DNA of 64,000 nt from Daucus carota subsp. sativus (lineage: Eukaryota > Streptophyta > Magnoliopsida > Apiales > Apiaceae): the NCBI RefSeq assembly GCF_001625215.2, contig NC_030383.2, forward strand, positions 63,230,949 through 63,294,948, in the 5' to 3' direction. Below the pieces are notes generated by a model. It saw only the letters and a program-made list of their open reading frames with translations. It made no database searches and was not told the origin of the DNA. The translations under genes and the position numbers were made by a program. Of the stretch, positions 23,798 through 47,982 are shown piece after piece. Numbering within the stretch: position 1 is the stretch's first letter; each line of letters begins with the position of its first letter.

Positions 23798-23905
23798 CCA
23801 AGTCTTCCATGACTCATTCCAAGTCTTCGGAGGAGACCCTGAGCACAAAGATGCTCAGGGTCTCCCCAAGCCTTCCAGGACTCATTCCAAGTCTTCGGAG
23901 CACGG
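23798..23905. repeat. Expanded CCAAGTCTT repeat array before RLP-F
   Basis: Four units of the 21-bp repeat (ATTCCAAGTCTTC three times plus CCCCAAGCCTTCC), separated by an inverted pair CCCTGAGCA...TGCTCAGGG (about 23,837-23,861). The other sites have two units. Confidence 0.75.
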
Positions 23906-24546
23906 TCTCGCCTCGCCCTTTCAAAGATGTGATAGTAGCTCGAGAGTGATATAAATTATTTTCCCGACACTAAAAATAAATAATCAGATCAAATTAATCA
24001 ATAATGTATTAAGGATGAAATCCAAATTAATCCTAAATTTTGATAATATATAAAAATTATAATTATAAATTATATACCAAATCAGAATTGAATTAATTCC
24101 TTGGCACTAAAATTGATAAAGAAAGTATAATAATTTAAATTTAATTGATGAAAAGTCAAAGTCTTCTAATAAATCCATAAAGAATATGATAATCAAAATA
24201 ATGAAAATTATAATTGAAAAATCAAAATCATTAGTGTATTGGAATAGTGTTCACACACTTGTATATCAAAATTTGTGGTCCAAAAACTATAGCACAATAT
24301 CCTAAATACACCACATTAAATATTAGTTCAAAAATATTTAGTAAATAATTGTTTTCATTCATCATTTTGTTATTTAAAAAACTAATAATTTGGGTTGATG
24401 TTAACCTATATTTTAATATATAATTATATTATTTTCGTCTTATTTATTTAACTAGAAACAATATTTTTATCATACATCAATTATATTAAAAGATATAATT
24501 TTATTAAAAAAATTGAATTATTATTTATGAATTCCAGCATGAAGCG
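23906..24546. other. AT-rich upstream region of RLP-F
   Basis: Aligns with 3,430-4,260 minus the MITE at 3,574. No gene. The promoter-proximal part is shorter than in RLP-C. Confidence 0.55.
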
Positions 24547-24555
24547 TATAAATAG
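24547..24555 (+). promoter_or_regulatory. TATA box of RLP-F
   Basis: TATAAATAG, 55 bp before the ATG at 24,602. The open frame extends upstream through the TATA box, so earlier in-frame ATGs are not likely starts. Confidence 0.75.
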
Positions 24556-24601
24556 AAGTGTGCAGTTGATCAGATTTATAACCCAGTTGATCAGGAGAAA
24601 C

Positions 24602-27268: not shown

Positions 27269-27838
27269 AGAAAGGTACTGGTCGATCAAGACAAACTTGA
27301 AAGTTGTTGTCCTGGTAGACATTTCTGAACCAGTAGTGTACTAGCTGCATAAGTATTTGGTATTATGTAATAATCCATTTGGTCGGGACTCATAATGATT
27401 TCTCTTGCTTCAGGGGTATTAATATTAACCTTGCTATCTTGATCTGTGTTAATGCAAATGAAAAAGAATGGAAAAACAAAAAAATTGCATCAAACCTGTT
27501 GTACCAAGATCCATTAATCTGCTTTCATCTCTTACGCAACAATTTAACAGCACTTTCACACTGTTTGAATGATTATCATAAATTCGAGTTTTCCTCGCCA
27601 GCACCAAATCCAAATATACAATCCCACACATTCCAGTCTCAGCTTCAGCTCCCAGGCTAGCATTGATTTAGCCAAGCACGACAGTGGCCGCTTGTGTGCC
27701 TAACAATGACAGTTGGGGATTTGATGGAACGTGCCTTGGTCCTGCCTTCAAATGTCTAACAATAACAGTTGGATATGTCGACAAAAAAATTGTTCCTCAC
27801 ACTGAGGAATAACTCTGACAGTTCTTTTCATTGTGCCT
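27269..27838. other. 3' flank of RLP-F
   Basis: Aligns with the flank of RLP-H (50,592-50,910), including GGGGTATTAATATTAACC and a run of ACAATTTAACAGCAC. The 93-codon open frame from 27,379 is not kept in the RLP-H flank. No gene. Confidence 0.6.
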
Positions 27839-28070
27839 TGGTCCAGTAAGTGGAAGGAGCACATCACATCCATTCCCCAAGTTGCGGATTCTAGATCTCT
27901 CCAACAACCAATTCACGGGCTATTTGCCAATTCAATACTTTAAGAATATATGAAACCAGCTGCTGATAAAGCGTATAGTTATCAAAATAAGTCACAAGGA
28001 CTAATTAATTACATATATGAAGCCTCTATCTCCTTAAATGTGAAAGGAACAGAGTATGAAGTGAAAAACA
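27839..28070 (+). pseudogene. RLP-G, left part (split by Helitron)
   Basis: Exon-2 sequence of an RLP from the GPVSGRST region to the island (VKGTEYEVKN), ending exactly at AAAAACA before the Helitron. A 2-bp insertion (AAGAATATATGAAACC) shifts the frame. No exon 1 is present: homology starts abruptly at TGGTCCAGTAAGTGG. The rest of the gene resumes at 45,178. Confidence 0.85.
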
Positions 28071-28440
28071 TCTCTTTATATTATAGCTCCTGATGCGTGA
28101 TTTGTACAGTTACCACACTGCTTAATTCTTCACCTCAAAGTTCCACCTTATTACAAAAATGCCACCGCTCTATTAAGCGGCACCCACGTAAGCTCATTGC
28201 CACCACGTGCTATCTTCCTGCTGTCTTTTGTTTATTTTATTCACTAAACCGTACTTACCCGAAGCTTATGTAACAAGCTTACATTCTTTACATTTTACTC
28301 ATTTCAAAATTTAAAACCCAGCCTCCACGGCTCCCTTACAAAAGTAACCGGTTTGAACGTAAAGTTTTCAAAACTAACCAGCCTACGTTCAACTTTTCAA
28401 AACTAACCAGCCTAAATCAAAAAAAGTCGGGCGACCCTTA

Positions 28441-30120
28441 CCTGTTTTTTTCCCGAGCACCGGTCGCCCTCCTCAGGGGCGTCCCCCATTGGAGTTCATC
28501 AAGCACAGGTCGCCCTCCTCAGGGGCGTCCCCCCTTGAAGTTCTGTGACGTGGTCCGCCCAATCACGGGCGACCACGTGTGACACTACCCCCTTAAAACC
28601 CCCTCCCAGCCACACAAACACACAATTACACACACATTTGCACACACTCAGTTTGAAAACAACACTGCAGCAGCCACAGCAAGGAGCCGAAAGGGGAGAT
28701 TTTGGTAAAGGAAGGAAGAAAAGTGGGAGAGGATCGCCCGAGCTAGCATCAAGGTCGCCCACCCTAGCAAAAAATTTGAAGGTACTACCTTATTCCTCCC
28801 CTAAATATTAGTATATAAAGCCTTGATTTGTAATTTATTACTTGATTAGTTTGTCTTGCATGTTACAAATATCGATTATGTTCATGATTATGGCTAATTT
28901 ATAGACTAGTGTTATAATTACCGGCTTGAGATTAGTGTTATAATTACCGGATTGAGATTTGGTACATTATGATTTTTAAATTTGTTAAAAAATTTAAAGA
29001 TTTATAATAGAAATTAAGGATAATTTATAGATTTGATATGTTGGAATTTAAGATTTTATGCTTTTTAGATTTTGTAGGTAGTAATTAAATTTAGTTGGAG
29101 AGAAAAAATATAATATAATATTCGAATTAAAAAGATATTGAGAATATAATATTCGAATTAAAAAATATTCGAATTAAAATATATTAAAATATAATATTCG
29201 AATTAAAAATATAATATAATATTCGAATTAAAATATAATATAATATATATTCGAATTAAAAAATATTCGAATTAAAATATATTAAAATATAATATTCAAA
29301 TTAAAAATAAAATATAATATTCGAATTAAAATATAATATAAAATAATATTCGAGTTAAAATATATTCGAATTAAAATATATTAAAATATAATATTCGAAT
29401 TAAAAAATAATATAAAATATATTGAGAATTAAAAAAATTAGAAAGCAAATAAAATATTCGGATAAAAAAGATATTAATAGCTAATATTAAAAAAAATCGA
29501 TTTATATTAATATTATTAGCATAAAACAAAATTATATTAAAATTCGATTTATAATAATAAAAATTCGAAAAAAAGCAAAATAATCGAATTAAAATAAAAT
29601 TTTCGAACATATATTAATAAAAATCTTAATTATATTAATATATAATTCGAATATATGAAATTTCGAGAATTAGAATATTTATGAAATTAAGAGAATTAAA
29701 ATAAATAGGAAATTCGAACAAAAATTAATTTAAGGTACGCTCTCGATTCTCTCTAAATTAATGTGTATATATATATAATGACTTGATTTGGATTATTGTT
29801 GTTTTATTAGCTTGAGTTGCATGTTATAAGATCGGTTAGTTTATTGATTGTGGCTTGAGATTTGTTATAATTGAAATTAAGGCTAATTTATAGATTTGAT
29901 ATGTTGGAATTAAGGCTAATTGAAATTAAGGCTAATTTATAGATTTGATATGTTGGAATTTAAGATTTTGTGCATGTTAGATTTTGTAGGTAGTAATTTA
30001 ATTTAGTTAGAAACAAAAGCTTTGAATTCGAATTACAAATATTATGTTGGAATGAGATTTTGTATATATACAAAAGCTTTGAATTCGAATTATAAATATA
30101 TTTGAAAATTGTTGGCACAG
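28441..30120. other. Leader region and AT-rich repeat of the PMD element
   Basis: 28,600-28,785 looks like a CA-rich leader exon ending TTGAAG|GTACTA. From 29,100 to about 29,740 the DNA is a degenerate run of ATATTCGAATTAAAATATA-type units. Two copies of GATTTGATATGTTGGAATTT (29,030; 29,943) suggest local duplication. The open frame at 28,545 has no recognisable domain. Confidence 0.5.
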
Positions 30121-33100
30121 ATGGATCCTGCAGCTTATCATCCCGGGCCGGTTAACGGCACTTTGTTGACATTGCAGGACACGCATAGGTCCACTTTTGT
30201 GTGGAACAGTAGTACGGTAATGACTTGATGGACTGTTGTTTATTAACGTTAATGTTTGCTTCACTATAAACTGCTGACAAGTTCCTGTATTTTAAATTGC
30301 AGGACATTCCTGATCTTAGAGTCAGGACGAACTTCGGTGAGTACTGGAATGTAGTTGACCAAACCAGGCCGCCTCAGACGATAATAGATGCTATTAATGA
30401 TGCGGGCTTTGAGTGGGTGTTCAAGTTGGGTCAGGTCAAGCATGACAGGGGCTTGATCACTGCTTTTATCGAGAGGTGGCGTCCAGAGACGCACACTTTT
30501 CATCTACCTTTCGGGGAGGCCACCATTACACTGGAGGATGTCCATCACATTCTCGGGTTACGAACCACTGGCCGGCCATTTATTCTACATGGCTTCACCA
30601 CCACACCTCGCGAGAGATTGGCCATGATACGCGATGTTCTTGGAGTGACTCCTAAGCCGGCTGATGTGAGGAAGAACGGCTTGAGGATCGGTTGGTTGAT
30701 TGAAAAATTTGGCGACTGTGCCCGGTTGGACGAGGCAGCGGAGGATTTTGATGCACAGACTATCTTTCACATCAGGGCACACCTACTGTGTGTTATTGGA
30801 TCGTTGTTTCCTGATAGCAGCGGGAACTATGTGAATCTCAACCTCCTTTGGATGCTACGTGACTTGCAGAGCGTGGATGGTTATAGCTGGGGGAGTGCTG
30901 TTCTTGCATACCTTTATAGGAAGATGTGCGATTCCACCCATAAAGTCACAAAAAACTTCGCTGGATACGCCACGTTAGTACAGGTACGCATTTACTATCA
31001 TTTTATTTTTCAAGTTTTTCTTCATATATACACTACGCCATATATGATCTATCGCAATGGTATGAACGCGAGTGTTGCAAAATTATGTTGCAATAGAGAC
31101 ACTGATCCATATCTACCGCAACGATAACCATTCATGTCAATTATATGTTGCAATAGCAAACATTATGTGTTGCAGCTTGTAATATACTTGTAAAAGTGTT
31201 AGCTTAAAGTATTATAATATTATTTTAACATTAAATAATAATTTAAATTATTTTAACAATATTTTAAAGTGATATGCAAATTAAATAAATAAGATACGCG
31301 ATGATATGCAAATTTTATTCATAATAATTAAAAAAATTAAAATAGGAATTTTAAAAGTAATTAATTTTTTTAAAAGCAATGAAAAGTAAAAATAATTAAA
31401 TTCCCCTTGTTTTGATATCAGAACTGATATATAAGTTTCAAAAATAAAAATATAGATATACGAATTATAAGTAGTAATAAATACATATAATGAATTTTGT
31501 TCCTAAAATAATTACATGAATTTTATTTGTTAAAATAATAAAGTATAGGTGCAGACGTGCAGTACATTATTTGACTTTATTGAACTGGGCAAATATCGAG
31601 CTCAAAGCGGGTAAAAATTAGGCTTACAGCCGCCCAAATTTTCAGCCAAGTTTGAAATTTTCACACATACACTATACACGCTCGAGTCTCCTTGAATACC
31701 CTCAACACTCACTACACTCTCTCCCTCGCTCAACTCTCTCTCCCTTCTCTACTCTCTCTCTCTTGTTAATCTCTCTGAAGCTAATCTCTCTCTGGCCACC
31801 ATTTTCACTCAATCTCGCCATCACTTTTAATTAACTTGGATTTGCATTTATAGTTGGAGCACAGTTGATTTGTGGGTCGAGGTTCCAATTCTTCAATTAG
31901 GGTTTTGGCTTTTCAATCAGGGTTTTGGTTCTTCATTAAACTTCAATTAGGGTTCAATTACTTACATATAATCTCTTAAACTTCATCTGATATCTCTTTC
32001 TCTTTGATTTCAGGTGTTCTTAGTTTGGGTTTGCACTCCAAGACTTTATTATAAGGTATTTTTGAATTTAGGGCTTCATGTTATGAGTTTATTTGCATTT
32101 AGTGTTCTTTGTTTTTATGTTTATTTGGTTTATTATCTTTATCTAGTTTATTTCCTTTGATTTTTTGTTTTTTTTTTCATTTGTTTTGTGAAATTGCAAT
32201 ACTCTGTTTTTGTGTTAATTTTTTTGTTGCTTAAAAGTGTTCAACAACAATATTCTTCTTAATTATAAAAGATCTATCACGAGGAAGAGGTCCCTGTTTT
32301 GTATAATATCTTGTATGTCTTTTCTTTTCTGTATATTATTAAGCTACCTTGGGGCATCCTTTTTCTAGACCAGATTTCGTGCGCAATCTTTAGTAAAGAG
32401 CAAATATTCCGATTCTTTTGCATTTGTCTCAATGTCAGTGCTTTGCATATATGGATATATTTTACATGAAAATGGTGCTTTTGTTGTTGGCCTGCTTAAT
32501 GTTCAAGACATGTAGTCAACTCAGTTTAGTGTGACAATAAGACTTTCTCATTTCATTATGATTCTCACATATTTTATGCTCGTCACAGTACAACACAGTT
32601 TTGTATTTGGTGTGAGTGAGCAGTAAAGAATTCTATGGAAGATGCTAGTGACTACCGGTGGTATATAACCAGGTAAAAATAATGCTCAGTTGATAATCCT
32701 TATAAGGGAGGCTCTTACTATTTCTTCCTCTTTAACATTGAGTTGTTTTAATGTACATACTAGCTGGTTGCTCAAGTGTTCTATCATTATAATGTATACA
32801 TTGGATACAATATTTGTTCAATGAGGTATCTAACTAGCTTGCTGATGGCCGGGGACTATAGATTTATTCATTGCTAATTGGTTATATTCGTTGTACCTGT
32901 TATGCCTCAATCATAATGGCATAGTGACAATAAAAGGAAAACGAATTATAAATATTTCACATAGCATGCTCTAGTTATCTACAACTATTGTTTTGGACTT
33001 CTGGTTTGGCATTTATAATAAGTTGGCATATGTCTTTGAATTCATATAGTTTGTAGCATGACCTAATTGGCACAAGTCATCCTCTGCCATGTCTTATATC

Positions 33101-35640
33101 TTTAGTTAGTAAGAATTAATATTTCCCATGTTTCAGCCACTATACAAATATTGATCATGGACGAAGTTCTTACCCTGTTTAGTATTAATTTCATTATCTG
33201 CTGCAACTTTATTGTGTTATCTGTGCACTGCCCAACTAAGTACACATAATTTGAGTTTAAAATAAAGCATGCTTCTTTACTGGAGCTCAGCTTAGTAGTT
33301 GCATTGTATTGTTGCAGGAGAAGCTTAAGCCGTTAATGGATCAACTTAACAAAGTCAAAGACTTGACTGTTCCAGAATTTGGAAATTTCCGAACTTGAGA
33401 AGTGCGAGCAAATGCAAGAATATGTTTATATATAATAGTGTAGTGTAGTGGGATGTTTGGTTGGATTCGTTTAATACTTTGATTTGGTTGGATTTGTTAG
33501 GTAGTTTTGTTTGGTTGGATTTGTTATAAACTTTGATTTGTATGAAAGAATAGTTTAATGTTTCAGTGGATATAGTGAAATATTGCAAAGTTGTTAATTT
33601 AGTCTTGCATTAGCACATATATGTTGTAGTAGCTAATATATATATGTTTCAATTTATAACAAAAAATGTTGCAAACATGCAACTGAAAAACAGGTGTCCA
33701 AACATAGGACCCACATGTGTGACCCACGTGTGGGTCCCACTTTTTTTGAAATCAGGAGGTCTAACGTAACATAATATATTTGTTGCTATAGGGTAGTCAG
33801 ATGTTGCAATATCACGTCTATTGTAACATAAAAAGCCGTGTTGCAGTAGGTTACCCAAATGTTGCAATAGAAGCCTAGGGCAACATGAAAAAATGCAACT
33901 TAAATTTTATGTTGCAATAGCCCTTTTTCGGGCTATGGCAACATATTTTGGGGTTATGGCATCATTTTTTTGATGTTGTCATAGGCCATATATGGCGTAG
34001 TGATATTTTGATGTGCACATATATGTATGTACCTTCACACTAGGTGTGGATATACGAGCGGTTCCCTACATTAGCTCCCCGACACACGGCCACACCCCTG
34101 ATTATCTACCCACTTGCGCTAAGGTTTGTAATATGCTACTCTTCTCGTAATCGCAATAAGTTTGTATATCCTCCAGTTTGTGCACATGTACTAGTTCACA
34201 CGTATAATATAAACATTTTGTTGTAGGTGGACAGGGCCGTTTACCCGTACTGAGGTGCCGCACGGTCAGCGTCGTATCACCCGGTACGAGCTGGATAACA
34301 TGATTGAGGCAAATTTTCGGTGGAGGCCGTATGCAGATCTAGATGACGAGCATCAGCCTGAGTATGATTTGTACCTGCGTTGGACTGCTCCTACGCCTTT
34401 GTTGTACATGGCCTATGTCGAGTGGTGTTATACTGATAGGGTGACGAGGCAGTTCGGGTTCGTGCAGGACATACCCACATCCTCTCCACGTGCGAATCAT
34501 AGTAACCTGCACACCATTGTCAACGAGGGGATTAACTGGGAGGGCGCCAGGGAGTCTTACACTCGTCTATGGGATAGGTCCCTCGAGCGAGCTCTTACAT
34601 CTCCCCCACTCATGTTTGGCGAGGGTTGCACTGCGGCATACATGCCTTGGTTTCTTGCAGTGACACGTAGATACATTGTAAACCCCGTCTATTGGAGGAC
34701 TGCAGAGGCTTTCCAGGGCACACAGGGTGCCACACAGGCACTGGTAAACTCCCTTGTAACTGTTCTTCTAACTTCTTTCCATTACTATGCTAGCTTATTT
34801 TCTATATGTTCTGTTATAACTATTCTTCATCTGATTATGTCTTCACATGGCTGTTAACAGGAGGATCAGCTTCTAGATATGGAGAGTGCCATTGACCCTG
34901 CTACCCTGGATCTTTCTCGGGCACAGAGGATTGTACAGGGGTTGTTAGGACGTTTTAGGGGTTCAAGCAACCCTAGCAGACACAGAGGACGGCCACCAGT
35001 TACACCAGTTGAGCCGGAGCCAGGCACGTACTACACTCACGTGGCCAGTGGTAGCTCAGACACGGGAGGTTGGTCACACCTGGTTGGCACTTCTTCTTCG
35101 CCGGTTGGGGATGTAGCGGGTACTTCTAGGGCGGATGGATGGGAGTCCTGGCCCGCGTCGACGGTCGGGCCATCTACATATGCAGGGGATGACTACGAGG
35201 GTGGTCCACGTGGCTTTACGGTCAGATTAGAGGATGACCACGACATGTCTGCTGAGGGTCAGTCGCAGGAGTCATACCAGTTCCAGGATGCAGATGCTTA
35301 TCGTCCTGACATGTCTTTCCTGAGGGATCAGTACACCACACCTCCGCCACAGGTCCCGGTGCCGTCATTTGCTAGCCAGTCCTACATCTTCGGGGCACCC
35401 GCGTTTCCATTCGCACCGCCACCAGAGAGGTCCACTCCCACTCCTATACAGATGTCCACTTTTGCTTCGTACACTGGTCAGAGTAGTCCATGGGCGCCCC
35501 CCAGCACAGCAGTAGCAGGGCACTCCGAGGTCGAGGAGCAACCTGAGGATGAGCATCGACAGCAGCCACCTAGAGCTGCGAAGGGAAAGGGTCGAAGATG
35601 TCACACTGGAAGCCACATCTTCGGCCATAAGAAGAAGTAG
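30121..35640 (+). CDS. Plant mobile domain (PMD) protein, 717 aa, five exons
   Basis: join 30121..30216, 30303..30983, 34044..34123, 34227..34743, 34861..35640. All junctions are GT-AG and the frame stays open, giving 717 residues. Exons 2-4 carry the plant mobile domain seen in MAIN/MAIL1 and serine/threonine-phosphatase-7-long-form-like proteins: ITAFIERWRPETHTFHLPFGEATITLEDV, HILGLRTTGRP (quoted in parts), then W...YERFPTLAPR and RYELDNM...WRPYADLD. The last exon is Pro/Ser/Gln-rich and ends with basic KGKGRR and GHKKK. Arabidopsis MAIN/MAIL1 act in gene expression and transposon silencing, and PMD genes are also frequent transposon cargo. This one lies inside a TIR element. Intron 2 contains a CACTA transposon. 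Confidence 0.85.
31031..34002. mobile_element. Nested non-autonomous CACTA element, 3.0 kb
   Basis: Termini CACTACGCCATATATG and CATATATGGCGTAGTG, 3-bp ATA duplication (31,028-31,030; 34,003-34,005). Subterminal arrays of TGTTGCAATAG lie at both ends. The middle (31,640-33,400) resembles a plant transcript: a CTCTCTCCC-rich leader at 31,690-31,800, AGGGTTTTGG leader motifs, and a last exon near 33,318 (EKLKPLMDQLNKVKDLTVPE then stop). No transposase. It sits in intron 2 of the PMD gene. Confidence 0.9.
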
Positions 35641-36530
35641 GATTTCCCTCGTATGTAGTTTGTTTATGGTTATGTACCTGACCATGTACTCGTACGTTTT
35701 TATTTCTTGATCTGATTATGTACTCTTAGTCTAGTAGATTCGTTGTTACGTTATTATGCAGTTCATGTGCTTTTCTTCATTCTTATGTCATAATGTTTTA
35801 TAATGATTCAAACATAACATAATAAACGACAGAACACTAAAACACATACACATGTTGATTTTTCTCGAAACCAGTCAAACTGACTTTATTTTGACTAAAC
35901 TTTACATATATCAAATAACTGAAAAAAATAATATAAAATTTGAATTACTTGAACAACAAAAGTTGAGACATTACATATAAGATACAATACATATAGTAAT
36001 GGGGGTGATCTTTTGGAGAAAATACCTAACTCAAAGGGATTTCTTCAAAGAATTTGAGATGGGTCAGAGCTTCAAGAATCTGTGTACTCTGCTTTTACAA
36101 GTACAAAGTGGGAAAAAGTGAGACATAAATAAAATGTAGTGAAGTATTTGAGATGGGAGAAAGTAAAACTAACTTAATTTCATATTAATATTGTGAAGAT
36201 ATTAGCATAGAATGATAAATATACATTTCTACTACCCATTTATAAAAGAAATATTATAAAATATAAAACTCTACGCTTTAAATTTAAATTGTTTTAAGTT
36301 GTTTTCTATTAAATTATTTTCCCCACAGGGGAAAATAATATTAAATTGTTTTAATATTATTGTTTTATTATTATTTGATTATTAAATTAACGAGTACATA
36401 ATTTGTAAAGTTTAGTGCTAAGATATATATATTATTTAATTTTATTAATTATATTAATTTCACAAAACAATTAAAATTTGATTTTAAATAAAATATTAAA
36501 TATATAATACAATAATATTAAATGGCGTAT
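35641..36530. other. 3' region of PMD gene, AT-rich
   Basis: 3' flank of the PMD gene followed by AT-rich DNA; nothing recognised. Confidence 0.4.
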
Positions 36531-36893
36531 AATCAGTGTTACAGAAATCGGGAATCGGACCTAATCGGTTGAGCTACCGATTCAGGGATTAATCGGAAAT
36601 CGGAGATTAATCGGACTGAAAATCGGATTTATTTTAATATTAAAATATTATTTATTATTTAGTTATTATTATATTAGGTATCTAGTAACTAATATATTTA
36701 CTATATTCATAAACTCTATAATTATTCATATTTAAAGTAATATAGTATTTTAATTCTAATAATTTATCACATATACTTCTATTAGAAAATATGTTATAAG
36801 GATTAATCGGATTTTAAAAATCGAATCGGTGGCCGACCTTGCAGGAGATTAATCGAGGATTAATCAGTTAAATCGGGGATTTTTAGAACATTC
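36531..36893. mobile_element. hAT-like MITE with AATCGG motifs
   Basis: Flanked by GGCGTAT copies at 36,524-36,530 and 36,894-36,900. Rich in ATTAATCGG and AAATCGG repeats in both orientations. Ends (ATCAGTGTTACAGAAATCGG / CGGGGATTTTTAGAACATT) are weakly inverted. Superfamily tentative. Confidence 0.55.
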
Positions 36894-37226
36894 GGCGTAT
36901 TATAATACAATTATATCAAAATTTAAAAAAAAAATCAGTACCTCAGTTTGGGTATCGGTCAGCCACCTAGGACAAGTGAATGAGTGAAACCGCTACAAAA
37001 AATGTAGTAGTATGGGTCGCCCCTGTCAAGGGCGACCCTAACTGTATTTTGTGACAGTATGGGTCGCCCCTGACGAGGGCGACCTGAACGGGGAAAAACT
37101 TCAGCTTGGGTCGCCCGACTTTTTTTGATTTAGGCTGGTTAGTTTTGAAAAGTTGAACGTAGGCTGGTTAGTTTTGAAAACTTTACGTTCGAACTGGTTA
37201 CTTTTGTAAGGGAGCCCAGCCTCCAC

Positions 37227-38671
37227 CATTGCAGCTCTGAGCAGCCATGAACCAGGTTATACTCCAGTCTCCTTTTCTCCCCCGCGTGTGTAAGTCTGTA
37301 CTGCAGCCCACATTTTCAACACGCTTCTGTCCTAAGCTTCGCAAGAAATATCTTTTTTTTGAAATTCAAAAAATTTGCGCACCATATCATCGTCCAGCCA
37401 AACCACCATCGGCGAATCAGCAAATATACATATCAGATCTAATATACACCAATCTGAGCTTTGATGACTGAGGTTTGATTTGTGTTTTATTTAATAAAAT
37501 GATAAAATGATGTCTTCTTTCATGATCATGCGATTAATCGATTGTAACTTTAAGGGAGATGGAACAAGCAATTCACGACGTCTATTTACCTCCGAAGACA
37601 TGATTAGTGGTATGGTTACATAAATTTAACTTCTCTATTTTTCTACCATGTGTGGCCTAATTGTTTCATCTCTTGCTTTGTAGGTTATCAGTCCAAAAAG
37701 CGGAGGAAAAGGGGCTACACAATTAAGAGATGAAACAGTATTGAGCATGTGAGCTTTAAAACTTGATGATTAAATTTTTCATATTATATTTGTTCTGTAT
37801 TTAGAAATTTGTGGAGGATGTGTTTGATAATATGTCTGAGAGAAGAAGTTAATAAATTTATCGTGTTGAGGATGTGTTTGATGATATGTCCGAGTGAAAA
37901 AATTAATAAATTTATTTTCAAAATGTTGCGAACAAATTGTAATTTATATCTAGCAGCTTCAAATAATTTTTTTTAGAGCAAAAAGAATCGCAATTGCATG
38001 TGAAGAGATGCACCTCCCTGATATTAGACTTTTAGTGTAATTGCATGTGTAACTAAACCGCTTGACTATAATGTTGGTGTAGAGTACGGAGCTTTAATTT
38101 ATGATGTTCTCCTCAATCTGTCCAAATTATAGCTGATCGTGGGAATCAACTTTAGGGTAAGCTCTGCTCTGAAACTCATTTTCTTATATTGGAACTTGGT
38201 TATTTCTTAAATGAAACGACTTTGACGTTTTCACCGAGTAGTCATAGATGCGTGAGTTGTACAATAGTAAAAGAAAAATAAATTACATAAAGACTGTCTG
38301 AGGTAAAATAGTATACAAGCTGCAATTTTATATTTGGTACATTGACGTAAAAAGTTATTGTTATGTTCAGGGGGAGGTGCTGAGAAATGACATGATTATA
38401 TCATACGAGCGGCGACAAACTACTGAAGTTGCAAAAGAAATGATCTTAAAGAAAGCAGAGAAAGTGGGGGAGTTTTTTCAAGAAAAGAATTTAAAGAGGA
38501 GATGAGATGCCAGAGTATTACGCGCTATTGCCGAAACAGGATTAAAAACTATATTGGGTATCTCTTCTTGATCTCTTGATTAATTCCACTAGGAAGCTTC
38601 AATATTATATAGGAAGTTTTCTTTTTAAGCTTAATTTTGAATTTGAATCCTCAAACTATAACTACTGTATA
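37227..38671 (+). pseudogene. Captured host gene pieces of unknown identity
   Basis: The ATG at 37,247 opens a 74-residue frame rich in Ser/Arg (QSPFLPRVCKSVLQPT), transit-peptide-like, directly after the TSD of the PMD element. That element apparently inserted in this gene's leader. Further exon-like pieces are at 37,555-37,607 and 37,682-37,735 (SPKSGGKGATQLRDETVLSM) and at 38,370-38,506 (ISYERRQTTEVAKEMILKKA), with possible splice sites between. I do not recognise the gene. Helitron capture of a host gene is the likely origin. Confidence 0.4.
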
Positions 38672-38694
38672 TCTCTTTATATTATAGCTCCTGA
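38672..38694 (+). repeat. Internal copy of the Helitron 5' terminus
   Basis: 23 bp identical to the outer Helitron start at 28,071 (TCTCTTTATATTATAGCTCC and three more bases), also preceded by A. It may mark a 6.5-kb Helitron (38,672-45,177) nested in or ancestral to the larger one. Confidence 0.75.
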
Positions 38695-39344
38695 CGCCGG
38701 GAACTTCCCCTTCTACAACCAGCCCAACTGTACATAACAGTTGCTTGCTTATGAATTTCAAATTTATATTATAATGTTTATATGTAATATTGAATCAAAG
38801 TTGCTTGCTTGCTTATGTAATATTGAATATCTACTGTTGGATGATTGTTAACTGCTGTGTTACCAAGTGTTTGATTAAATTCCTACAAGTTTTGTTTGAA
38901 TTTTGTTCTTTATTTATCATTAGTATGTTTCATTTTTATGTTTGACTCTATGCTAATCGCTGATAAGATTTCTATGATTATAGGAGATGAGTGTTCTTAT
39001 GGCATGAATGATATTGGAAAAGTGAAATGTGTTGATGCTTTGTGTAAATAAATCATGATCTGCCGTTATAGTTTTCTGTTTGTTTTCAATTTGTGTGTAC
39101 CTAGGTGGTTGTTACTGAGCATTGATCAACTGTGTTAATTAATTTATTAAAATGGAGTTGAGTCTGAGAACTAAAGGGCAATTATATACTTCTTTAGGCT
39201 TTCCTTAACATGTTTTTATTCATTAAAAAAAATCGATGAGTTTTTATAAATATATATACTCTGTTATTTTCTCTGTACCTAATTAAAAGGATTTTAATTC
39301 GAATTATAGGTGTTTGTCATGTGAATATTATCTAAAAGATAATG
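38695..39344. other. Helitron interior
   Basis: AT-rich, transcript-like DNA (GCTTGCTTATGTAATATTGAAT repeats weakly near 38,740-38,830); no coding region recognised. Confidence 0.3.
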
Positions 39345-39570
39345 GGGCCGTTTGGGTTAGCTTAAAAGAAGTGACTTTTTGCTTATAGTAAAGAAGTGGA
39401 GTAGAAGTGAGAAGTAAATAAGTTAATAAAGTGTTTGGAAAAGAAGCAGAAGCTGTGAGAGAGAAGCTAGCATTCTCAGCTTCTTAAAAGTGCTTCAACT
39501 TCTTTACACAAACAGGTCAAGAGAAGCAGAAGCCAGAAGCAGCTTCTGCTTCTCTTGGCCAAACAGGCCC
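39345..39570. mobile_element. GGGCCGTTTGG MITE, copy 2
   Basis: Termini GGGCCGTTTGG / CCAAACAGGCCC, about 226 bp. Very similar to 16,151-16,379, including AAGAAGTGGA and AGAAGCTGTGAGAGAGAAG. It looks the best preserved of the three copies. AAT lies on both sides, possibly a 3-bp duplication. Confidence 0.8.
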
Positions 39571-40901
39571 AATATCTTTAAGGTCTCTTGCATTGGTCAT
39601 TTAATGTGTTAATTAAAAGTTTACATTTAAATTTTTTGATCTAATAATTTTGGATAGATGGTTTGTGAGGTTAATGAATGAACTAATATGGAATGATAAA
39701 ATGTAGGAGGTCTGGAAAGATGGGTTTCAATGCAGGTTTATTGCTACTTTCCTTCAGGTCTGCATTGCTTTGGTCTGTCTTCAGGACTGAGACTGTGATT
39801 GGTTTCGGAACAGACACAAGTATATATATGGACCAATGCAAAGCACCTGATTATCATACTTTAGGCTTTTGCTCTGCTTTCTATGGTAAAAAAAAGTGAC
39901 ATTACTTCGAATCTGATACAGTTTATCCAAGAGCTTGCTTCAATATTAAGAATGCAATACGTGTTGCAGATAAAATTTTGACCAGCAACATTGGGGCACC
40001 CAACCCAAATCTAGCAACATTGGCCGTGGAGCTTTAAATATCTCCGTAAGATTCTTTTCCCTCGCAGGCAGGCATCTTTTTCTGCGAAAAATATACAAGA
40101 AAAAAGGACTAATTTGTTTAATTGAAAATAAATTTCGGATGAGTTGGATTAAGAATCAAATGGAGAGTCCTGTTTTGGTTTCATTTTGATGGAGAGGTTG
40201 CTTAGGTCCTGTTTTGATCGAAAGGTTGAAAAAATATTTGGTATTTTTTGGTCTCATTTTGGTTTGTTTCGTTCCTTCACAGGTGTGCAACAAGTGATGA
40301 TAGTATTTAAACATGATTAGCAAACTGCCCAGCAATCCATGCATGGCAAGGGGAATGCACAGCTTAATGATTTCAGTCTCCGTACCATCCAAGTGCAACA
40401 AAAATCAATTATCTTGTGATGTCTAGGATTCTACAAAAGTAAGAAGCCTTCATTCATCTTCATTCATCCCCTGTTACTAGAAAAGCATTGGTAGCCTATA
40501 AGCAGGTACACTAAGTAGCTCACCTAATTTTTGCATTTCAGTATCAACGGAAAGTGGTGCAGGACTCCACTTTATAATTAAATTATGTGTCTAAATTATG
40601 CGTGTTGTAATGTTTAGTGACCATGTTCCAGACCCGACATGTCCTTACTTGGCAGATCAAGTTATCCAAGATTTGGGAAGGAGTTTCGCCTTTGAGATCT
40701 CCAACAAGTAAGAAGAAATAATGTCAAGGAATGAACTAATGTAAAATGATAAGAAGATGAAGGTATAAAACAATGATTATAATGTAGGCTTCTTCGTAAT
40801 GTAATGAACAAAATAATGGAGTAACTATAACTATTCTTGCTGCAAGCCTGTGTTTGTTTAATGCTATCTGGCAGTAGTTTAGCATTGGTATATTCCTTAA
40901 G
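39571..40901. other. Helitron interior with possible captured exon
   Basis: A 68-codon open frame at 39,693-39,899 (GFNAGLLLLSFRSALL; FGTDTSIYMDQCKAP) has exon-like composition but no family I recognise. The remainder to 40,901 shows no gene. Confidence 0.3.
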
Positions 40902-41084
40902 GTGGATTTGGATAGAGTGAGAGGAGACATTACTTATCTTTACCTAGCTACTGCTTTTCATGAGATTTGGGCAGAGCGTAACATTAGAATTCATCATCCT
41001 AAGAGTTTTAAAGTTGCAAACCGGCTTATCAAGGACATAATAGCCTCTGTTACTATTTTTACATGCTCCTCTATTGTTGTGTGA
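40902..41084 (+). mobile_element. LINE fragment (C-terminal zinc-binding RT region)
   Basis: Encodes the last ~60 residues typical of plant LINE reverse transcriptase ORFs, with AFHEIWAERNIRIHHPKSF and NRLIKDIIASVT, the zf-RVT tail. Only this 3' coding tip is present; the rest of the LINE is missing. No target duplication was identified. Confidence 0.65.
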
Positions 41085-42086
41085 ACTTGCTGAACTCCTT
41101 TTTTCTGTTGTTCTACTTACTAAAATCTTTTTAATTTTCTTTTGTTAGGTACACTAAGTGGTTCACTCAATTTTGGCATTTTAGTATCATTGGCAAGTGG
41201 TGTAGGACTCCATGATTCTGTGTTGTCCACAAGCAACGGAAAAAAAGCCTGCAGAAATGTTTCGAATACTTTGAACGAAATAAAGGTACATTATTAGGCA
41301 AGTGATTGTGGCGGCAGAGATAGCAGTTTGATTGCTACACAATTATGTGTTTCACAAGATTTTGCTATTTTAAATTATAGTAAATTTGATTAAATCCCAC
41401 TCGGAAAGTTTGAAATTTCTTGATGTTGCTTAGTTAAAATTTGGATATGGACAATTATGATATTTGTGAATTTGGGTTCTTTTTATAGGTGATTTTTGAA
41501 CATTGCTAGAATGATATATGATCTCAGGCCTCACACTCTTAACATCTTTACGAGGCTTACGAGGTTCGAGATGAGTTGGTTACTTAACATGATTCGTTTA
41601 ATTTAATTATGTGTTTGTGTAGTTGGGTTGATTTGTTGTTTGTTTCGTTTAATTGTACAATTAAGGAGATGGTGTTTACAATAATAATATTGAAGATAGT
41701 TTGTAACTAGAGTATGTTGTTAATAATTTGGTTATGAGAAATTGAGGCCGACACAAGTTTAATCTGGCTTTCTCGAGATGATCTGACCTCGAGAAGAAAG
41801 ATTATCTCAAAGTAGTTTTGTAAGTTGCTTCTCTCTGTTTTTGGACAATGTAAATTCTTACATTACATCTGCCTCTTGCAGGTAACATCTTTGCTTTTAG
41901 GCTCTTTATATCGCCGATGTAAGTTTTGCTCCATAAATTTCAGTGTTTGGCTAGATCTCCTACAACTGTACTTTTAAAGAAAAATAGAAGAAATCAAGAA
42001 CTGAGTTTACTGTACTTTTGCAGTGATAATCAGATATGTACCGGTTTTGCTTCGCATAGTCACACCTTTTCTTTGTACAATTGCAG
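41085..42086. other. Helitron interior
   Basis: No gene recognised. 41,150-41,215 weakly repeats 40,505-40,570 (GGTACACTAAGT...TTTGGCATTTCAGTATCA...GTGGTG...AGGACTCCA), a local duplication. Confidence 0.4.
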
Positions 42087-42222
42087 ACCCACTTTTAGGG
42101 GTATTATGATGAGGAACGAGTGTACAGAAGACTTCTCAGGTCTTCCATATCTATATGCCCTCCTGCACTGCTTGATTTGTGCCTGGTATGGCATGTCGTT
42201 TATGTCAGATGATAATGTGCTT
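42087..42222 (+). pseudogene. Captured SWEET sugar-transporter exon
   Basis: After an acceptor-like TTGCAG the frame reads PTFRGIMMRNECTEDFSGLP then YLYALLHCLICAWYG, the highly conserved first-helix-bundle region of SWEET (MtN3/saliva) sugar transporters (PTF..I....STE.FSGLPY.YALLNCL...WYG). About 45 residues remain; the other helices and the second MtN3 repeat are absent, so no transporter can be made. The gene fragment was most likely picked up by the Helitron. The match is closest in wording to the SWEET2 type, from memory. Confidence 0.8.
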
Positions 42223-43560
42223 GATAACTGTAACCTTATACAGCTACATTTACTTTAAATGTCTTGAACACAGTGGTTGCAAATAATGGTTAAATGATTA
42301 ATATTTACACTGATCTACTGCTTTTACACTGATCACTGCTTATGATGTTGAAAAACCAAAATTTGGTGGAGAAATTGGGATCAATGGAGGGAGCTTGCAC
42401 TGACACACGAAATCTGTCAAAGCCTAGATTACAAAGTAATACTTTACTTGACTGATCGACGGTTCAACTCAGCAGGATATGGAGTATGCTCGCAGTGTAC
42501 ATAACATCCAATCTCCCAAGGTCTCATCATCTACTTTGGAGACAACCTCAAAATGGGTGTAGTTGCACTTGCACCCAAAAATGAAGCCAGTGCAAAAATC
42601 AAAGAGATGACCCATTTGTTAAAAATGTTGAGGCTGAAGAGTACAAGGGAACCAAGGTCAGAGATGTCTCCTCCGCTAAGAGATGAGGAAATATGGCAGT
42701 CGTTGGTATTTGGGAAATGCATGTTAGCAAATACATGGATTATAAATTGTATGAGTGACAGGATGATAATATAGCGTCTCATAGTCTAATATTGCCAATG
42801 ACAGGGCTAATAGCAATAGCACTTTCAAAAGTAGGTTTGCAGCTGTGAAATTCACTCAAAGTTGTGAAATTTGTGAAATTTGCTTTTGCTCTAACATGTA
42901 ATACCCCGGGTTCCATTCTTTTGTTTACTTGAATTTGAATTGTATTGTTATCTTTGTTTTTTTATTATAATTATCCAAAAATAGATGTCCATCTTGACTT
43001 TTGGTTGGTTATTAGACAGAGGAATTGAGCCCGGAAATAAAAGTGTTACTAATTATCATCCATTATTAAAGCAATTATTATATTAGACCAATTTTATTTT
43101 TGCACTATTTGAAATATTCACTTTATCTGAATGATGAATGGTTCTTCTTTCAGTTAATACAGTGTCATTCACTGGTTAACAAATGACCTCTTAAATTATT
43201 CATGAAATCATTTAAAAATATATAAAGTTTAATTGACAAATTTATCTTTTTTAATAAAATTATACTCAAATTTTTGGTTGAAATGTATGTAGCTTTAAGA
43301 TTATAATCACTTTTAGCCGAAAGTACTTTAATATTAGTGTTCATAAAAATAATTTTTGAATAACTTATTAATGATTAATTATTTTATGTAACGGTTTAAT
43401 AAAATTATACAAATATAATGATTTCTAATTTGAGAATAGTTTTTTATAGTTCAAAACAAAATTTATAATAAAAAAATTTAACGAGTTATCAGTAATTAAT
43501 AATATACATTTACAATTAAATTATCCAAATTAATTATAAAATATTAAAATTTAAAATATT
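42223..43560. other. Helitron interior
   Basis: 42,480-42,775 has two exon-like frames (QSPKVSSSTLETTSKW; SAKIKEMTHLLKMLRLK) of unknown identity. 42,900-43,560 is AT-rich with nothing recognised. Confidence 0.35.
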
Positions 43561-44350
43561 TGACTAAAGTGCGAGGCGTCACCGCTCGGCGACGTCGAGG
43601 GGCACTTGATAGAATATGACTTTTCATATATTACAAAGTTTAGCTATATAATTATTTTGATTATAAGATATTAAAATATAAAATATTCGACTAAAGTGTG
43701 AGGCGTCGCCGCTCGACGACACCGAGGAGGACTTGATAAAATATGACTTTTCATATATTACAAATGTTTAGCTATATAATTATTTTGATTATAAAATATT
43801 AAAATATAAAATATTCTACTAAAGTGTGAGGCGTCACCGGTCGGCGACGACGAGGAGCACTTGATAGAATATGATCTTTCATATATTACAAAGTTTAGCT
43901 ATATAATTATTTTGATTATAAGATATTAAAATATAAAATATTCGACTAAAGTGCGAGGCGTTGCCGCTCGGCGAGCCGAGGAGTACTTGATAAAATATGA
44001 CTTTTCATATATTACAAATGTTTGGCTATATAATTATTTTGATTATAAAATATTAGAATATAAAATATTCGACTAAAGTGCGAGACATCGCCGGGGAGCA
44101 CTTGATAAAATATGACTTTTCATATATTACAAATGTATTATATAATTATTTTGATTATAAAATATTAAAATATAAAATATTCGACTAAAGTGCGAGGTGT
44201 CGCCGAGGAGTACTTGATAAAATATGACTTTTCATATATTGAAAATGTTTAGCTATATAATTATTTAAATTATAAAATATAAAATATTCGACTAAAGTGC
44301 GAGGCGTCGCCGAGCGGCGACGCCGAGAAGTACTTGATAAAATATGACTT
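43561..44350. repeat. Tandem repeat, ~127 bp, seven units with GC-rich palindromic core
   Basis: GACTAAAGTG-type starts at 43,562, 43,689, 43,817, 43,944, 44,071, 44,183 and 44,290 (spacing 127, 128, 127, 127, 112, 107). Each unit joins an AT-rich arm (CATATATTACAAA...AATATAAAATATTC) to a GC-rich core. In the last unit the core GGCGTCGCC GAGC GGCGACGCC is a perfect 9-bp hairpin. The shorter fifth and sixth units have lost the right half of the core. Confidence 0.92.
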
Positions 44351-45149
44351 TCATATCTTTAAAAATATTATGTAATTTTCGAACGTAAATGAATTTTAAT
44401 TACGAATTAACTTTTATAAATACTCAAGTTATACAACGGTTTTTGTTGAATTTGATTTTTATTTTACACTGAACTTTTATTTTTATAACTACAAAATCAC
44501 AAGTTATATTTAATATTTTTTTTATAACTCAATTGTTGTTTTCTTGCATATAAAAGTTTGTAAGTATAAGTAATGGATATAATAACGTCATATTAATTTT
44601 CAAAATATAATCAATATTTTAAATCTTATTGACAAAAAAAGGACTAAATTCTATCTATTATTTTAAAATATTATTTTAAAATATTATTGTATATACAAAT
44701 ACTCACAAATACTCCATGACGCTGACGAACATCCAATAATCATTATCAGGTAGTGAAAGATCTGAGGAACACATTAAAATTTGTACTTCAATAAAACACA
44801 ATTGAAAGATGAATTTTAGCCAAAATAAATATGCATGAATACAGGTTGGCAAATTGGCGTAACAACCACTGAGCTACTCAAGTACAAGGACTCGATGAAA
44901 GGCCTCTACTACTCCCAGAACCTGAAAATGCTATTTCTATAATTCCATCACGTTATTTATCTTATTTAATGTACTGTTCTGTGATAACGTATGGGAACTC
45001 GCTAATATGGAATGCTAGCTTTGCATTTGGTCTCCTCGCCATATTCACAAATCATTAGGATTCATATAGAATTGGTGCGTGTTCAAAACAGAATTTTTTC
45101 AAGCACAAGATCAGCAAAAATAAATTTATTAATCTTCTGCAATTTAAAA
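44351..45149. other. Helitron 3' region
   Basis: AT-rich, no gene recognised. Confidence 0.4.
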
Positions 45150-45177
45150 TGCCCAGCAAGGCGGGCATAAATACTAG
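45150..45177 (+). other. Helitron 3' hairpin and CTAG terminus
   Basis: TGCCC A GC AAG GC GGGCA forms a 7-bp stem with a bulged A, then TAAATA and CTAG, with host T following. Confidence 0.8.
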
Positions 45178-45779
45178 TTCTTCATATTTACACAACCATT
45201 GATCTGTCTTGCAACAAATTTCAAGGAGAAGTTCCAAAGGTTACATGAGAGCTTAAATGGCTTGCATTGCTCAATCTATCTCATAATAGTCTCACCGGAC
45301 ATATCCCATCACTCCTCGGAAATATGGAAGCACTCCTATCTCTAGATTTGTCTTCAAATCAATTGACAGGGGCTATTCCACACCAATTAACTAAATTGAC
45401 ATTTCTAAAGGTGTTGAACCTCTCGGGAAATAATCTTACTGGGGAAATCCCGCAAAAAGGGCAATTCAGCACTTTTGGAAATGAGTCATACTTGGGGAAC
45501 CCGGCCTTGTGTGGACTTCCTTTGACGGAAAAATGCATGCATGCAGTGTCACCAACTCAAGAAGTCGGAAATGGTGATACTGATGAAGATGACGATGCTG
45601 ATGATGAACTTAATTGGGAAGCCATCCTGATGGGATATGGATGTGGATTGATATGCGGATTGTCTTTGGGGTACATTGTTTTCAAGATAGGAAAGCCTTG
45701 GTGGTTTGTGAAATACATTAAAATACTACAACTGAAATTGATGAAAACATGCACAAAGCATAGCAGACGAAAGACTTGA
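45178..45779 (+). pseudogene. RLP-G, right part (C-terminal half)
   Basis: Continues RLP-G from the island (HIYTTIDLSCNKF) through the last LRRs, C-cap (ALCGLPLTEKC), acidic linker, membrane helix (GYGCGLICGLS) and basic tail. A TGA codon replaces Gly early in this part (GTTACATGAGAGC against GTTACTGGAGAGC in RLP-F). From 45,267 the frame is open for 170 residues. Promoter and exon 1 are absent, so it should be non-functional. Confidence 0.88.
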
Positions 45780-47927
45780 GGAGATGTTGTCTTAGGATGC
45801 AATCTCGTTTAATACTTTCATCATTATTCTCCAAGATGTCTGAACATGTATTTTCAAAGAATTCTCAGTTCACCTTTAGCCTTATAAAGTAAAAGACATT
45901 TTAAAGGCACTCTCAACTTACACCTATATATACACGTACGGTTCACTTCAGTACAAAGATTATTAGCCATGCAAAACATGCAGAACCACTAGTAATGCAG
46001 AAAAACAAAATATCAGTTTTCTCCAAATATCACTACAACAAAACTGCCATTTTACGACGGAAATCTAATATTCTAAAGGTTTACGACCAAACTATGTTGG
46101 TGGACTTTATTTTAATTTACAGTTTTAACAGTAGTTAATTTTGGATATCTAAACTTGCGACAGAAAACATACGACAGTCTACCTCGCGAGAGAAAATCAT
46201 TTTATTTTATTTTTTAGCGCCAGAATTTTAATACTAAAATATTATATATATGAAGGAAACTGATCTCTAATGTTTTCAGCTTGCTCATCCATATGTAAGT
46301 AATCCGTCGAAAAAGTTAGTTTGTTGTGGTGGTGTCTTATCATGAGAGAAAATGATAATATCGCAAAATATTTGCAACTGAAAGATAAATTATAATTCTA
46401 GAAACCATTTAGGTAACGATGCACGAAGTTATTTTCACTCACTTAGAATTAATGATCATAAATATTTGCAACGGAAAGATACATTATAGTTCTAGAAAAG
46501 GATCCACGAAGTTATTTTCACTCACTTAGAATTAATTGTAAGTTATTGTGAGTTTTTGAATATGGATTATCTCAAATTTTATGAAAACACATATTGATTC
46601 ATATATACAAATTTGCCTACCTAATATTATAATATTTATGGAGAAGTTGTATGAACAATTGTGTAGATAATTATACTTTACAAAGCATACTTCTGCTAGA
46701 TGAATTTTGATTAAACAAAATCGAAAGGGATAGGTCTGGGTCTCTCCAAGTCTTTGAGGACTCATTCCAAGTCTTCTGACGAGGACAAAATATATTGCTG
46801 GTAGTCTTTCAGTCCTTCCTAGAGTATTTTATGCTCTGGACTGCATTATGCAGCTCTCATATAACTTTGCGATGCAAAACAGTGGCAAGTAAGTATTTCC
46901 GTATGTGTATTTATTTGTATATTAAAGTTGCGTAACATTTGTGTTGATAATTTGCGTAATGTTGATGAGGATTGCTCCCAAGTCTTGGACGGACTCTTTC
47001 CAAATCTTCTGAGGACATATCGGTTCAAATTAGTCCATTAAAAATTTTATGATATGAAGCTATCTGCAAAATAATATATAAGGTAAAATGAACCATTGTT
47101 TTGTGGTTAAGTTGTACAGGCAATATGCAGTGCAAAATCAGGAACAGAATATATGAATACTAGTAATATGATATCGGTATGAACGAATATTTTCTATGTA
47201 GTTGTTATTGTGATGCGGAAAAAATATTGTAACCAAAAATAATTATAATTCTAAAAATTTCCATTATACACTTTTTTAGTGTTCGTGGTACTTCAAATGA
47301 CATTTCTCGCGTATGCCTCCAATTAAGAACTTGATGTTCAGCATAGTCCGAAACTAAAATTATTATAAGTGTGTAATTCAAAATTATATTGCTGGTAGTC
47401 TTTCAGTTCTTCCTAGTGTATGCAGTAGTTTCATTCGATACCGATTATTTTATGCATTGCCCGAGAACCAGTCTATCTAAAACCCTAAGATGTTATATTT
47501 TTATACGTGTATTAGTTTTGAAGATTAAAGTTGTATGGACAATTGTGTTAATAATTTGCGCAATTGCGCAATGATAACTGGGATAGGTCATCTTCTCTCC
47601 CAAGTCTTGGATGGACTCTTTCCAAGTCTTCTGAGGACCCATCAGCTCAGATTAGTCCATACAATGTCAAGGGTCCTATGGATATGGTCTACTAACAGCC
47701 CAGTGTCGGTAATAAATCCAATTGCATATAACCTATTCAAAATCAATCCCCTATAAACAATCATCTCTAAAAACTATTCACATAAAATAAAATTTTAAAA
47801 ATATAAAATATCTAGTTGTTTTCAATATATAATTTTCCACAGTAGATAACACAATATCTTTATCAAATTATTATTTATGGGTTCAATATTTAAGCTATAA
47901 TTCCAACAACACGGCAAGCATGCAGCA
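45780..47927. other. Spacer between RLP-G and RLP-H
   Basis: No gene. Aligns with the first-block spacer (9,770-18,220) but without its three transposons, so it keeps their empty sites (about 45,965, 46,030 and 46,240). Contains two copies of the ~91-bp tandem repeat (46,371-46,540) and CCAAGTCTT dimers at 46,746, 46,978 and 47,599. Confidence 0.75.
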
Positions 47928-47936
47928 TATAAATAG
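47928..47936 (+). promoter_or_regulatory. TATA box of RLP-H
   Basis: TATAAATAG, 55 bp before the ATG at 47,983. Confidence 0.75.
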
Positions 47937-47982
47937 AAGTGTGCAGTATGGTATTGCATTCATAACCCAGTTGAGGAAAAAT

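Follow-up and report, generated by a model that had tools for sequence, protein, structure and literature searches.

A non-autonomous Helitron with a patchwork interior and a load of passenger transposons has most probably inserted, by rolling-circle transposition, into a decayed copy of a receptor-like-protein (RLP) gene within the window, the 64,000-nucleotide stretch of carrot DNA analysed here from a single haplotype; we assign this reading a probability of roughly 85%. Table 1 lists the features of the insert, which carries two Helitron 5' ends and one 3' end.

Table 1. Features of the Helitron insert and its flanks (positions in the window).
Feature	Position	Strand	Details
Left RLP-relic piece (C-terminal LRR region)	27839-28070	+	ends with target A at 28070; RLP-paralogue homology from about 27839
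Complete Helitron insertion (probable)	28071-45177	+	17,107 bp, between A (28070) and T (45178); gapless paralogue junctions and terminal families
Outer Helitron 5' terminal region	28071-28328	+	ends in MULE target CAGCCTCCAC (28319-28328)
MULE-like TIR element with plant mobile domain (PMD) gene pieces	28329-37216		8,888 bp; target duplication CAGCCTCCAC at 28319-28328 and 37217-37226
ORF with N-terminal PMD part	30270-31127	+	PF10536 profile 1-187, E 6.8e-42
CACTA-like element	31031-34002		2,972 bp, CACTACGCC...GGCGTAGTG; ATA/ATA flanks; between the two PMD parts, within the MULE-like element
ORF with C-terminal PMD part	34213-34857	+	PF10536 profile 208-346, E 7.4e-18
Outer Helitron interior, module patchwork	37217-38671	+	common to C7, C2, C4 and C5 loci at 81-95%
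Second, internal Helitron 5' terminus TCTCTTTATATTATAGCTCCTGA	38672-38694	+	preceded by A; same as the insert's first 23 bases
Putative inner Helitron	38672-45177	+	6,506 bp; ends at the shared 3' end
High-copy MITE, GGGCCGTTTGG/CCAAACAGGCCC ends	39343-39578		at least 36 other places (227-281 bp, 91-98%) among the best 40 of 3759 candidates scored
Captured SWEET (MtN3) sugar transporter gene fragment	41359-42231	+	83% to C5:45923267-45924098
Subterminal tandem repeat array	43530-44370		spacing about 127 bp; related arrays in several family copies
3' terminus	45150-45177	+	hairpin TGCCC..GGGCA, then TAAATACTAG; exact in at least 3 genome places, at least 60 within 3 mismatches
Right RLP-relic piece	45178-45779	+	starts with target T; in-frame TGA at 45246-45248

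Boundaries of the insertion and the RLP relic

The insert starts with TC, ends in CTRR and lies between A and T without a target duplication, as canonical Helitrons do; its junctions read ...GAAAAACA (28070) / TCTCTTTATATTATAG (28071) on the left and TGCCCAGCAAGGCGGGCATAAATACTAG (45177) / TTCTTCAT (45178) on the right. The two RLP flanks close up without a gap at A|T against all six RLP paralogues of the window that span the join (a seventh alignment across it was a self-match of the window's left flank, extending 11 bases), and when the 120 joined bases were aligned locally to each of the six, the matches covered 112-120 bases free of gaps, at 86.6 to 94.2% identity. Some shorter RLP pieces, such as 9621-9753, match on one side of the join.

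An initial annotation of this DNA had proposed a Helitron at 28071-45177, joining two RLP halves base-perfectly at A|T, with a TC start, a 3' hairpin and a CTAG end. The coordinates prove exact, the join is borne out by the six gapless paralogues, and the terminal features are all present and recur in the genome, with no match to reversed controls; the genome search for the ends that the annotation suggested found other copies with both ends and A|T insertion, and those at L025 and L026/L027, carrying exactly the same ends, support the identification as a Helitron. The annotation had also spoken of a split RLP exon, ‘RLP-G’: the insertion does lie within RLP-derived sequence, but RLP-G is a truncated, frameshifted and decayed C-terminal fragment (27839-28070 plus 45178-45779), with two additional bases near 27945 in its left piece relative to three paralogues. 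The copy broken by the Helitron was probably not functional and, because it is a truncated relic, its disruption probably matters little to the plant.

Terminal families and sibling copies

Genome searches scored the best candidates only, and the resulting counts are lower bounds: the 24-base 5' end was found at 12 or more sites with up to 3 mismatches and the 3' pattern at 60 or more, the window included in both cases, and the reversed controls gave none. A|TC is present at nine of the 11 other 5' ends, the first bases being degenerate in L029 and L030. The G+C-rich 3' hairpin, whose fold was beaten by only 1 of 200 shuffles (z -3.37), is separated from the 3' end by nine unpaired bases, close to the spacing of about 10 in canonical Helitrons.

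An exact 24-base 5' end is combined with an exact 3' end at two further loci, L025 (C6:29400269-29408131, 7.9 kb) and L026/L027 (C3:43550012-43607293, 57.3 kb, of which we read about 9.6 kb from the left, 8.7 kb from the right and two samples of 3 kb); the 3' ends of L025 and L027 show 28-base identity, with CTAG|T. A paralogous site without the interruption is present on C4 for the C3 locus, and a genome search for an empty site of L025 returned its own two flanks only. Several copies with common ends lie at unrelated flanks, as is characteristic of Helitrons. Same-strand 5'-to-3' pairs within 40 kb, a limit of our choosing that excludes the 57-kb C3 pair, numbered five (three of them beyond the window); 2000 random placements averaged 0.057 and never exceeded 2.

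Relatedness varies along the insert. Over positions 28071-28326, identity is 87% with L028 and 77-79% with L025, L026 and L029; the 340 subterminal bases at the 3' side show only 67% identity to L025 and L027, and 79% (over 248 bases) to L032. The 3' end of L028 is too divergent to match the 3' pattern used. The siblings with identical ends (7.9, 17.1 and 57.3 kb), two of the three with uninterrupted paralogous sites, form a natural series that could be used to ask which stop a Helitron takes when given several ends.

A second 5' terminus

The initial annotation was silent on the intact second terminus at 38672, one of at least four exact 24-mer matches genome-wide; the chance expectation of an internal 5' terminus is about 9e-10 per 17.1-kb strand under a first-order model. 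Downstream of it, identity to L028 reaches 96-97% (38693-39288 and 39610-41325), versus 87% for the outer 5' part, a comparison that involves a single relative. At L030, the sequence left of 38672 is present without the inner element and reads CTGTATA|TCT; because the bases past the site (TCTATATAGCTTCTG) themselves resemble a worn 5' terminus, this target is perhaps not a cleanly empty one. The search for genome matches spanning the 38671|38672 junction returned the window alone.

The window contains one 3' end of the family pattern. A scan of the insert for a hairpin plus CTRR-T gave two weak matches in all, at 30310 and 34741, and none in 38672-45177, although a worn end could escape such a scan; an inner Helitron stopping short of 45177, which would leave that position to the outer 3' end, was set aside as unsupported by it.

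The chances are about even that the insert is a composite of two Helitrons, formed by nested insertion and then transposition from the outer start. In favour of this are the exact inner terminus, the differing identities of the outer and inner parts to L028 and the L030 sequence left of 38672. The inner element (38672-45177), L028-like and with ends of the same subfamily, would have inserted at A|T within another Helitron; RepHel supplied in trans would then have nicked the outer 5' end, copying would have run to the first 3' terminator, that of the inner element, and the composite, with two 5' ends and one 3' end, would have been pasted between the A and the T of the RLP relic. The MULE-like element, and later the CACTA-like element inside it, would have been received before or after arrival at the RLP.

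Two alternatives concern this composite route specifically. Tentatively, a template switch during stepwise capture, in an otherwise ordinary Helitron, may instead have led onto a Helitron 5' end and then into an L028-like element, no nested insertion being needed: elsewhere the interior consists of short modules that nearly abut, ATCT at 38671 is present in both L030 and the terminus, and the same junction would result from switching to a 5' end because the inner terminus and the next segment share GA; a random switch point, however, need not coincide with the terminal base following an A, precisely where the inner copy begins and where a true insertion would begin. It is unlikely that two complete nested Helitrons stood at the RLP and that recombination between like 3' ends deleted the remaining outer element, a route that gains from both 5' ends belonging to one subfamily (their first 23 bases are identical, so that the 3' ends could be alike) but requires an extra deletion and fits poorly with the one patterned 3' end in the window and the empty hairpin-plus-CTRR scan of 38672-45177. 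A rearrangement or assembly join that separated the RLP pieces by 17 kb with no transposition is very improbable, even for one haplotype and a repetitive RLP cluster, and segmental rearrangement was dropped, given that the A|T junction is exact to the base, that the canonical ends recur and that the paralogues run through without gaps.

Passenger transposons and the size of the insert

MULEs are recognized by TIRs and target duplications of 8-11 bp, and CACTA elements by CACTA TIR ends and 3-bp target duplications. The former hallmarks are found at 28329-37216, where inverted arms of about 203 bp (83% identity) are flanked by a 10-bp target duplication; of the three ORFs scanned, two contain PMD and none gave a transposase, which in autonomous MULEs is of the mudrA type, and this element is termed MULE-like by structure only. 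The CACTA-like element, likewise assigned by structure, has the expected ends and ATA/ATA duplication.

The insert carries other whole transposons, as previously claimed (the MULE-like element, the CACTA-like element inside it and the MITE). Its size had been considered unusual for a non-autonomous element; of the total of 17,107 bp, the Helitron proper makes up 8,209 bp after removal of the 8,888-bp MULE-like element and the 10-bp duplication. The unusual size is due to passengers, and ‘giant Helitron’ as an intrinsic property was rejected because 8.9 kb belong to the MULE-like load. We think it improbable that the MULE-like and CACTA-like elements were on board when the whole 17.1-kb load transposed as a single Helitron unit, and that the C3 sibling travelled likewise, at up to 57 kb and carrying Copia elements; were this so, Helitrons of the subfamily would carry whole cut-and-paste and copy-and-paste transposons, nested Helitrons giving the stop signal.

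Captured sequence and transposase source

The interior modules are short and abut almost end to end, and some loci sharing those of 37217-38671 have Helitron-like 5' ends. The SWEET fragment is identical to its donor at 46 of 52 residues; PF03083 matches the donor ORF with E 3.1e-13, the window ORF scoring 0.0021 (below the cut-off). A filament-like plant protein (PF05911 ORF at L044) was rejected as a captured source, the matched piece being near that ORF but not part of it.

RepHel was absent from the five frames scanned among the insert's 16 stop-to-stop frames of at least 80 aa, which gave PMD alone, and PF14214 was absent from the insert among the 150 places listed of 168 matches (best 150 of 344 candidates scored). 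A supply of RepHel in trans may be reflected in six pairs in which PF14214 lies upstream of a family 3' end, where random placement averaged 0.39 but also reached six at most, and the opposite-strand and wrong-order controls gave one pair each; the C4 and C9 pairs may be mutual copies because their spacing is alike.

Comparison with known Helitrons

All of these features have precedent, in multi-5'-terminus Helitrons (maize, Fusarium), gene capture and a 17-kb carrot insertion, and the kind is already well described. Helraiser/Helibat1 is described with a 5' TC, a CTAG 3' end, a palindrome near the 3' end as terminator and an AT target (PMC4778049), all resembling the insert, but is an autonomous bat element, likened here by description rather than sequence. 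In carrot, a 17-kb insertion in DCAR_730022, a Y2 candidate, has been described as a Helitron (PMC10581907); it is equal in size, likewise disrupts coding sequence and probably comes from the same species and assembly. Near it lies a PF14214 match at C7:39180360 (if C7 is chromosome 7), and the end patterns of the present subfamily have no match there.

Among maize helA elements, which range from 128 to 20,874 bp, 17.6% are reported to have several 5' termini, and the palindrome with a CTAG 3' end and the stepwise capture of gene fragments are similar (PMC3288121); the insert described here, from another species, is set apart in structure by having two 5' ends but a single 3' end and by MULE-like and CACTA-like passengers that double its size. 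For the Fusarium FoHelis, several 5' termini with one 3' terminus are attributed to self-insertion, with transposition that begins from the outer 5' end and halts at the first 3' end (PMC5148889), a composite route identical to that proposed here. FoHelis are fungal, with non-canonical (Helitron2-like) termini and duplicated 5' sequence typically under 200 bp (PMC5148889), whereas in the carrot insert the repeated sequence is 23 bases long and its two copies lie 10.6 kb from each other, or about 1.7 kb once the MULE-like element is subtracted. Beside these systems, the carrot locus is a clean, well-bounded case in which three known habits of Helitrons meet: A|T insertion, patchwork capture that took in part of a SWEET gene, and two starts within one element.

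Results

Insertion boundaries and the RLP target

The initial annotation had read the interruption of RLP-G, a receptor-like protein (RLP) relic, as a 17.1-kb Helitron splitting an exon whose halves join base-perfectly at A|T; the observation is confirmed and the evidence supports the Helitron reading; the size is accounted for, and the target is more degraded than described. When the flanks (27300-28070 fused to 45178-46000) were aligned to the RLP copies of the window, the alignments to six copies spanned the join (a seventh spanning row is just the window's own left flank continuing for 11 bases). Some of the shorter RLP fragments aligned to one side only. Within the 120 bases around the join, each of the six copies gave a gap-free local alignment of 112-120 bases, at identities of 86.6, 87.7, 90.3, 90.3, 90.4 and 94.2%; the pieces therefore abut base for base, with A|T as the target.

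The exact abutment stands, but what was split is a truncated relic rather than an intact exon. The left piece comprises ~230 bases, RLP homology starting only at about 27839, and a two-base insertion near 27945 shifts its frame relative to paralogues; the right piece carries an in-frame TGA at 45246-45248, and leucine-rich repeats lie in its ORF at 45249-45779. Given this truncation, the insertion probably did not interrupt a functional gene. Beyond the leucine-rich repeat matches, the name RLP follows the initial annotation and what we take to be typical C-terminal anatomy. RLP genes and truncated relics cluster in the window at 1-9700, 18126-27268 and 47833-50591, and 9157-9753 and 23128-23643 look like additional C-terminal fragments.

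Features of the insert and their matches (C2, C4, C5 and C7, carrot contigs; L028 and L030, other Helitron copies; PMD, plant mobile domain)
Feature	Coordinates	Description
Helitron insert	28071-45177	starts TCTCTTTATATTATAG, ends TGCCCAGCAAGGCGGGCATAAATACTAG; A precedes, T succeeds
MULE-like element	28329-37216	inverted arms about 203 bp, 83%; 10-bp target duplication
CACTA-like element	31031-34002	ATA/ATA flanks; between two PMD parts
Interior module	37260-37955	C7, 88-95%
Interior module	37910-38181	C2, 81%
Interior module	38178-38499	C4, 85%
Interior module	38500-38674	C5, within complete Helitron L030, 94%
Interior modules	38693-39288, 39610-41325	complete Helitron L028, 96-97%
High-copy MITE	39343-39578	at least 36 other places in the genome
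Captured SWEET piece	41359-42231	SWEET gene on C5, 83%

Siblings sharing both ends

A 300-base 5' query recovered the 5' terminal part at 11 other loci (among the best 40 of 70 candidates), nine of which read A|TC, the first bases being degenerate in L029 and L030; a 100-base 3' query recovered three other loci. The 3' ends of L025 (C6:29400269-29408131) and L027 (on C3) read CTAG|T, with the last 28 bases identical, and that of L032, another copy, has CTAT instead of CTAG. Genome-wide, the 5' 24-mer (up to three mismatches) has 12 sites and the 3' 29-mer pattern 60, both including the window; each reversed control gave 0. The 5' end is matched exactly at four sites (the window twice, C3:43550012 and C6:29400269) and the 3' end at three (the window, C3:43607293 and C6:29408131), so these constitute one end-subfamily with three members, of 7.9 kb (C6), 17.1 kb (window) and 57.3 kb (C3). 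Other copies with shared ends and A|T insertion, which the initial annotation had named as confirmation of the family, are thus found in the C3 and C6 siblings.

The joined flanks of the C3 sibling align to an uninterrupted site, C4:17527847-17527976 (110/130 columns identical). This alignment is gap-free at the A|T; its single gap, of 4 bases, falls in the left flank. A genome search with the flanks of the C6 copy found no empty site. Copia-type gag and pol frames occur in both end regions of C3:43550012-43607293, so nested retroelements account for at least part of its length. The flank ahead of the 5' end of L028 (C6:19027397), ATCTCTTTA, resembles the start of another 5' terminus, and L028 may have landed in or next to a worn Helitron end. 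Near the 3' end of the insert lies a tandem array (43530-44370, about 127-bp spacing), with related arrays in several family copies.

Nested elements and captured sequence

The extent of the insert holds, but its unusual size is explained by its MULE-like load: subtracting the MULE-like element together with one target duplication leaves 8,209 bp. As had been proposed, whole transposons are carried (MULE-like, CACTA-like and MITE). The MULE-like element contains pieces of a plant mobile domain gene (PF10536; this genome has 158 matches to the domain if N- and C-terminal pieces are scored separately), and no transposase was seen in the three of its ORFs scanned. Its TIR ends recur in the genome, in three cases as pairs that face each other across 4.6 to 5.1 kb.

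Judged from its best matches, the interior is a patchwork. Among the matching loci, L040, L049 and L053 (one place), L050 and L055 contain Helitron-like 5' ends (up to two substitutions). Parts of the SWEET stretch are closer to other contigs than to the C5 gene (41604-41973 to C4, 95%; 41948-42284 to C2, 87%), so that the captured piece seems to have further copies there, the one on C4 lying 140 bp past a Helitron-like 5' end. The PF03083 profile matches the donor frame at 3.1e-13 and the window frame weakly (0.0021, below the curated cut-off); a window ORF scan at 0.001 gave no PF03083 match in the stretch. The two frames agree at 46/52 residues.

A second 5' terminus and candidate RepHel partners

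At 38672, preceded by A, there is an exact repeat of the insert's first 23 bases, for which a first-order model of the insert gives a chance expectation of about 9e-10 per strand. The DNA beyond it shows 96-97% identity to L028, whereas the outer 5' part reaches only 87% to this one relative. In L028 the shared interior begins about 627 bases past the 5' end, leaving the inner element short of about 600 bases at this point. The sequence to the left of 38672 is also present in L030, where the inner element is missing, although the next bases resemble a worn terminus. Together, the exact second start, the unequal identity to L028 and the arrangement in L030 suggest two Helitrons of different history within the insert.

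Partners were sought by pairing 18 5' ends, 60 3' ends and 150 listed matches to PF14214, which traces the Helitron enzyme RepHel, on the same strand within 40 kb, against 2000 random placements. Five 5'-to-3' pairs were found, including the window's own two (random mean 0.057, maximum 2; both controls 0). Among the PF14214 matches listed, there were six RepHel-to-3' pairs (random mean 0.39, maximum 6; controls 1 for opposite strand and 1 for wrong order), of which those on C4 and C9, with near-equal spacing, may be non-independent, and two 5'-to-RepHel pairs (random mean 0.13, maximum 3; both controls 0). These statistics point to RepHel-bearing partners at candidate level. The six PF14214 matches precede same-strand family 3' ends by 15.5 to 32 kb (e.g. 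C5:13923492-13939061, C4:20340063-20372326), spacings that may reflect large or TE-loaded autonomous partners.

Discussion

Gene-inserted Helitrons of such size have already been described in carrot: one report (PMC10581907) describes DCAR_730022 as disrupted by a Helitron and as carrying a 17-kb insertion. The same report mentions a curated carrot Helitron library, so the window copy may already be annotated; among the papers listed in our literature search, no title or abstract opening names the 28071-45177 locus.

The 38672 start could possibly have been produced by a template switch, or the arrangement by later recombination between like 3' ends. If two such Helitrons are involved, the simplest route would start at the outer 5' end and stop at the first 3' end, as proposed for Fusarium (PMC5148889). 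Several 5' termini are reported for 17.6% of maize helA elements (PMC3288121).
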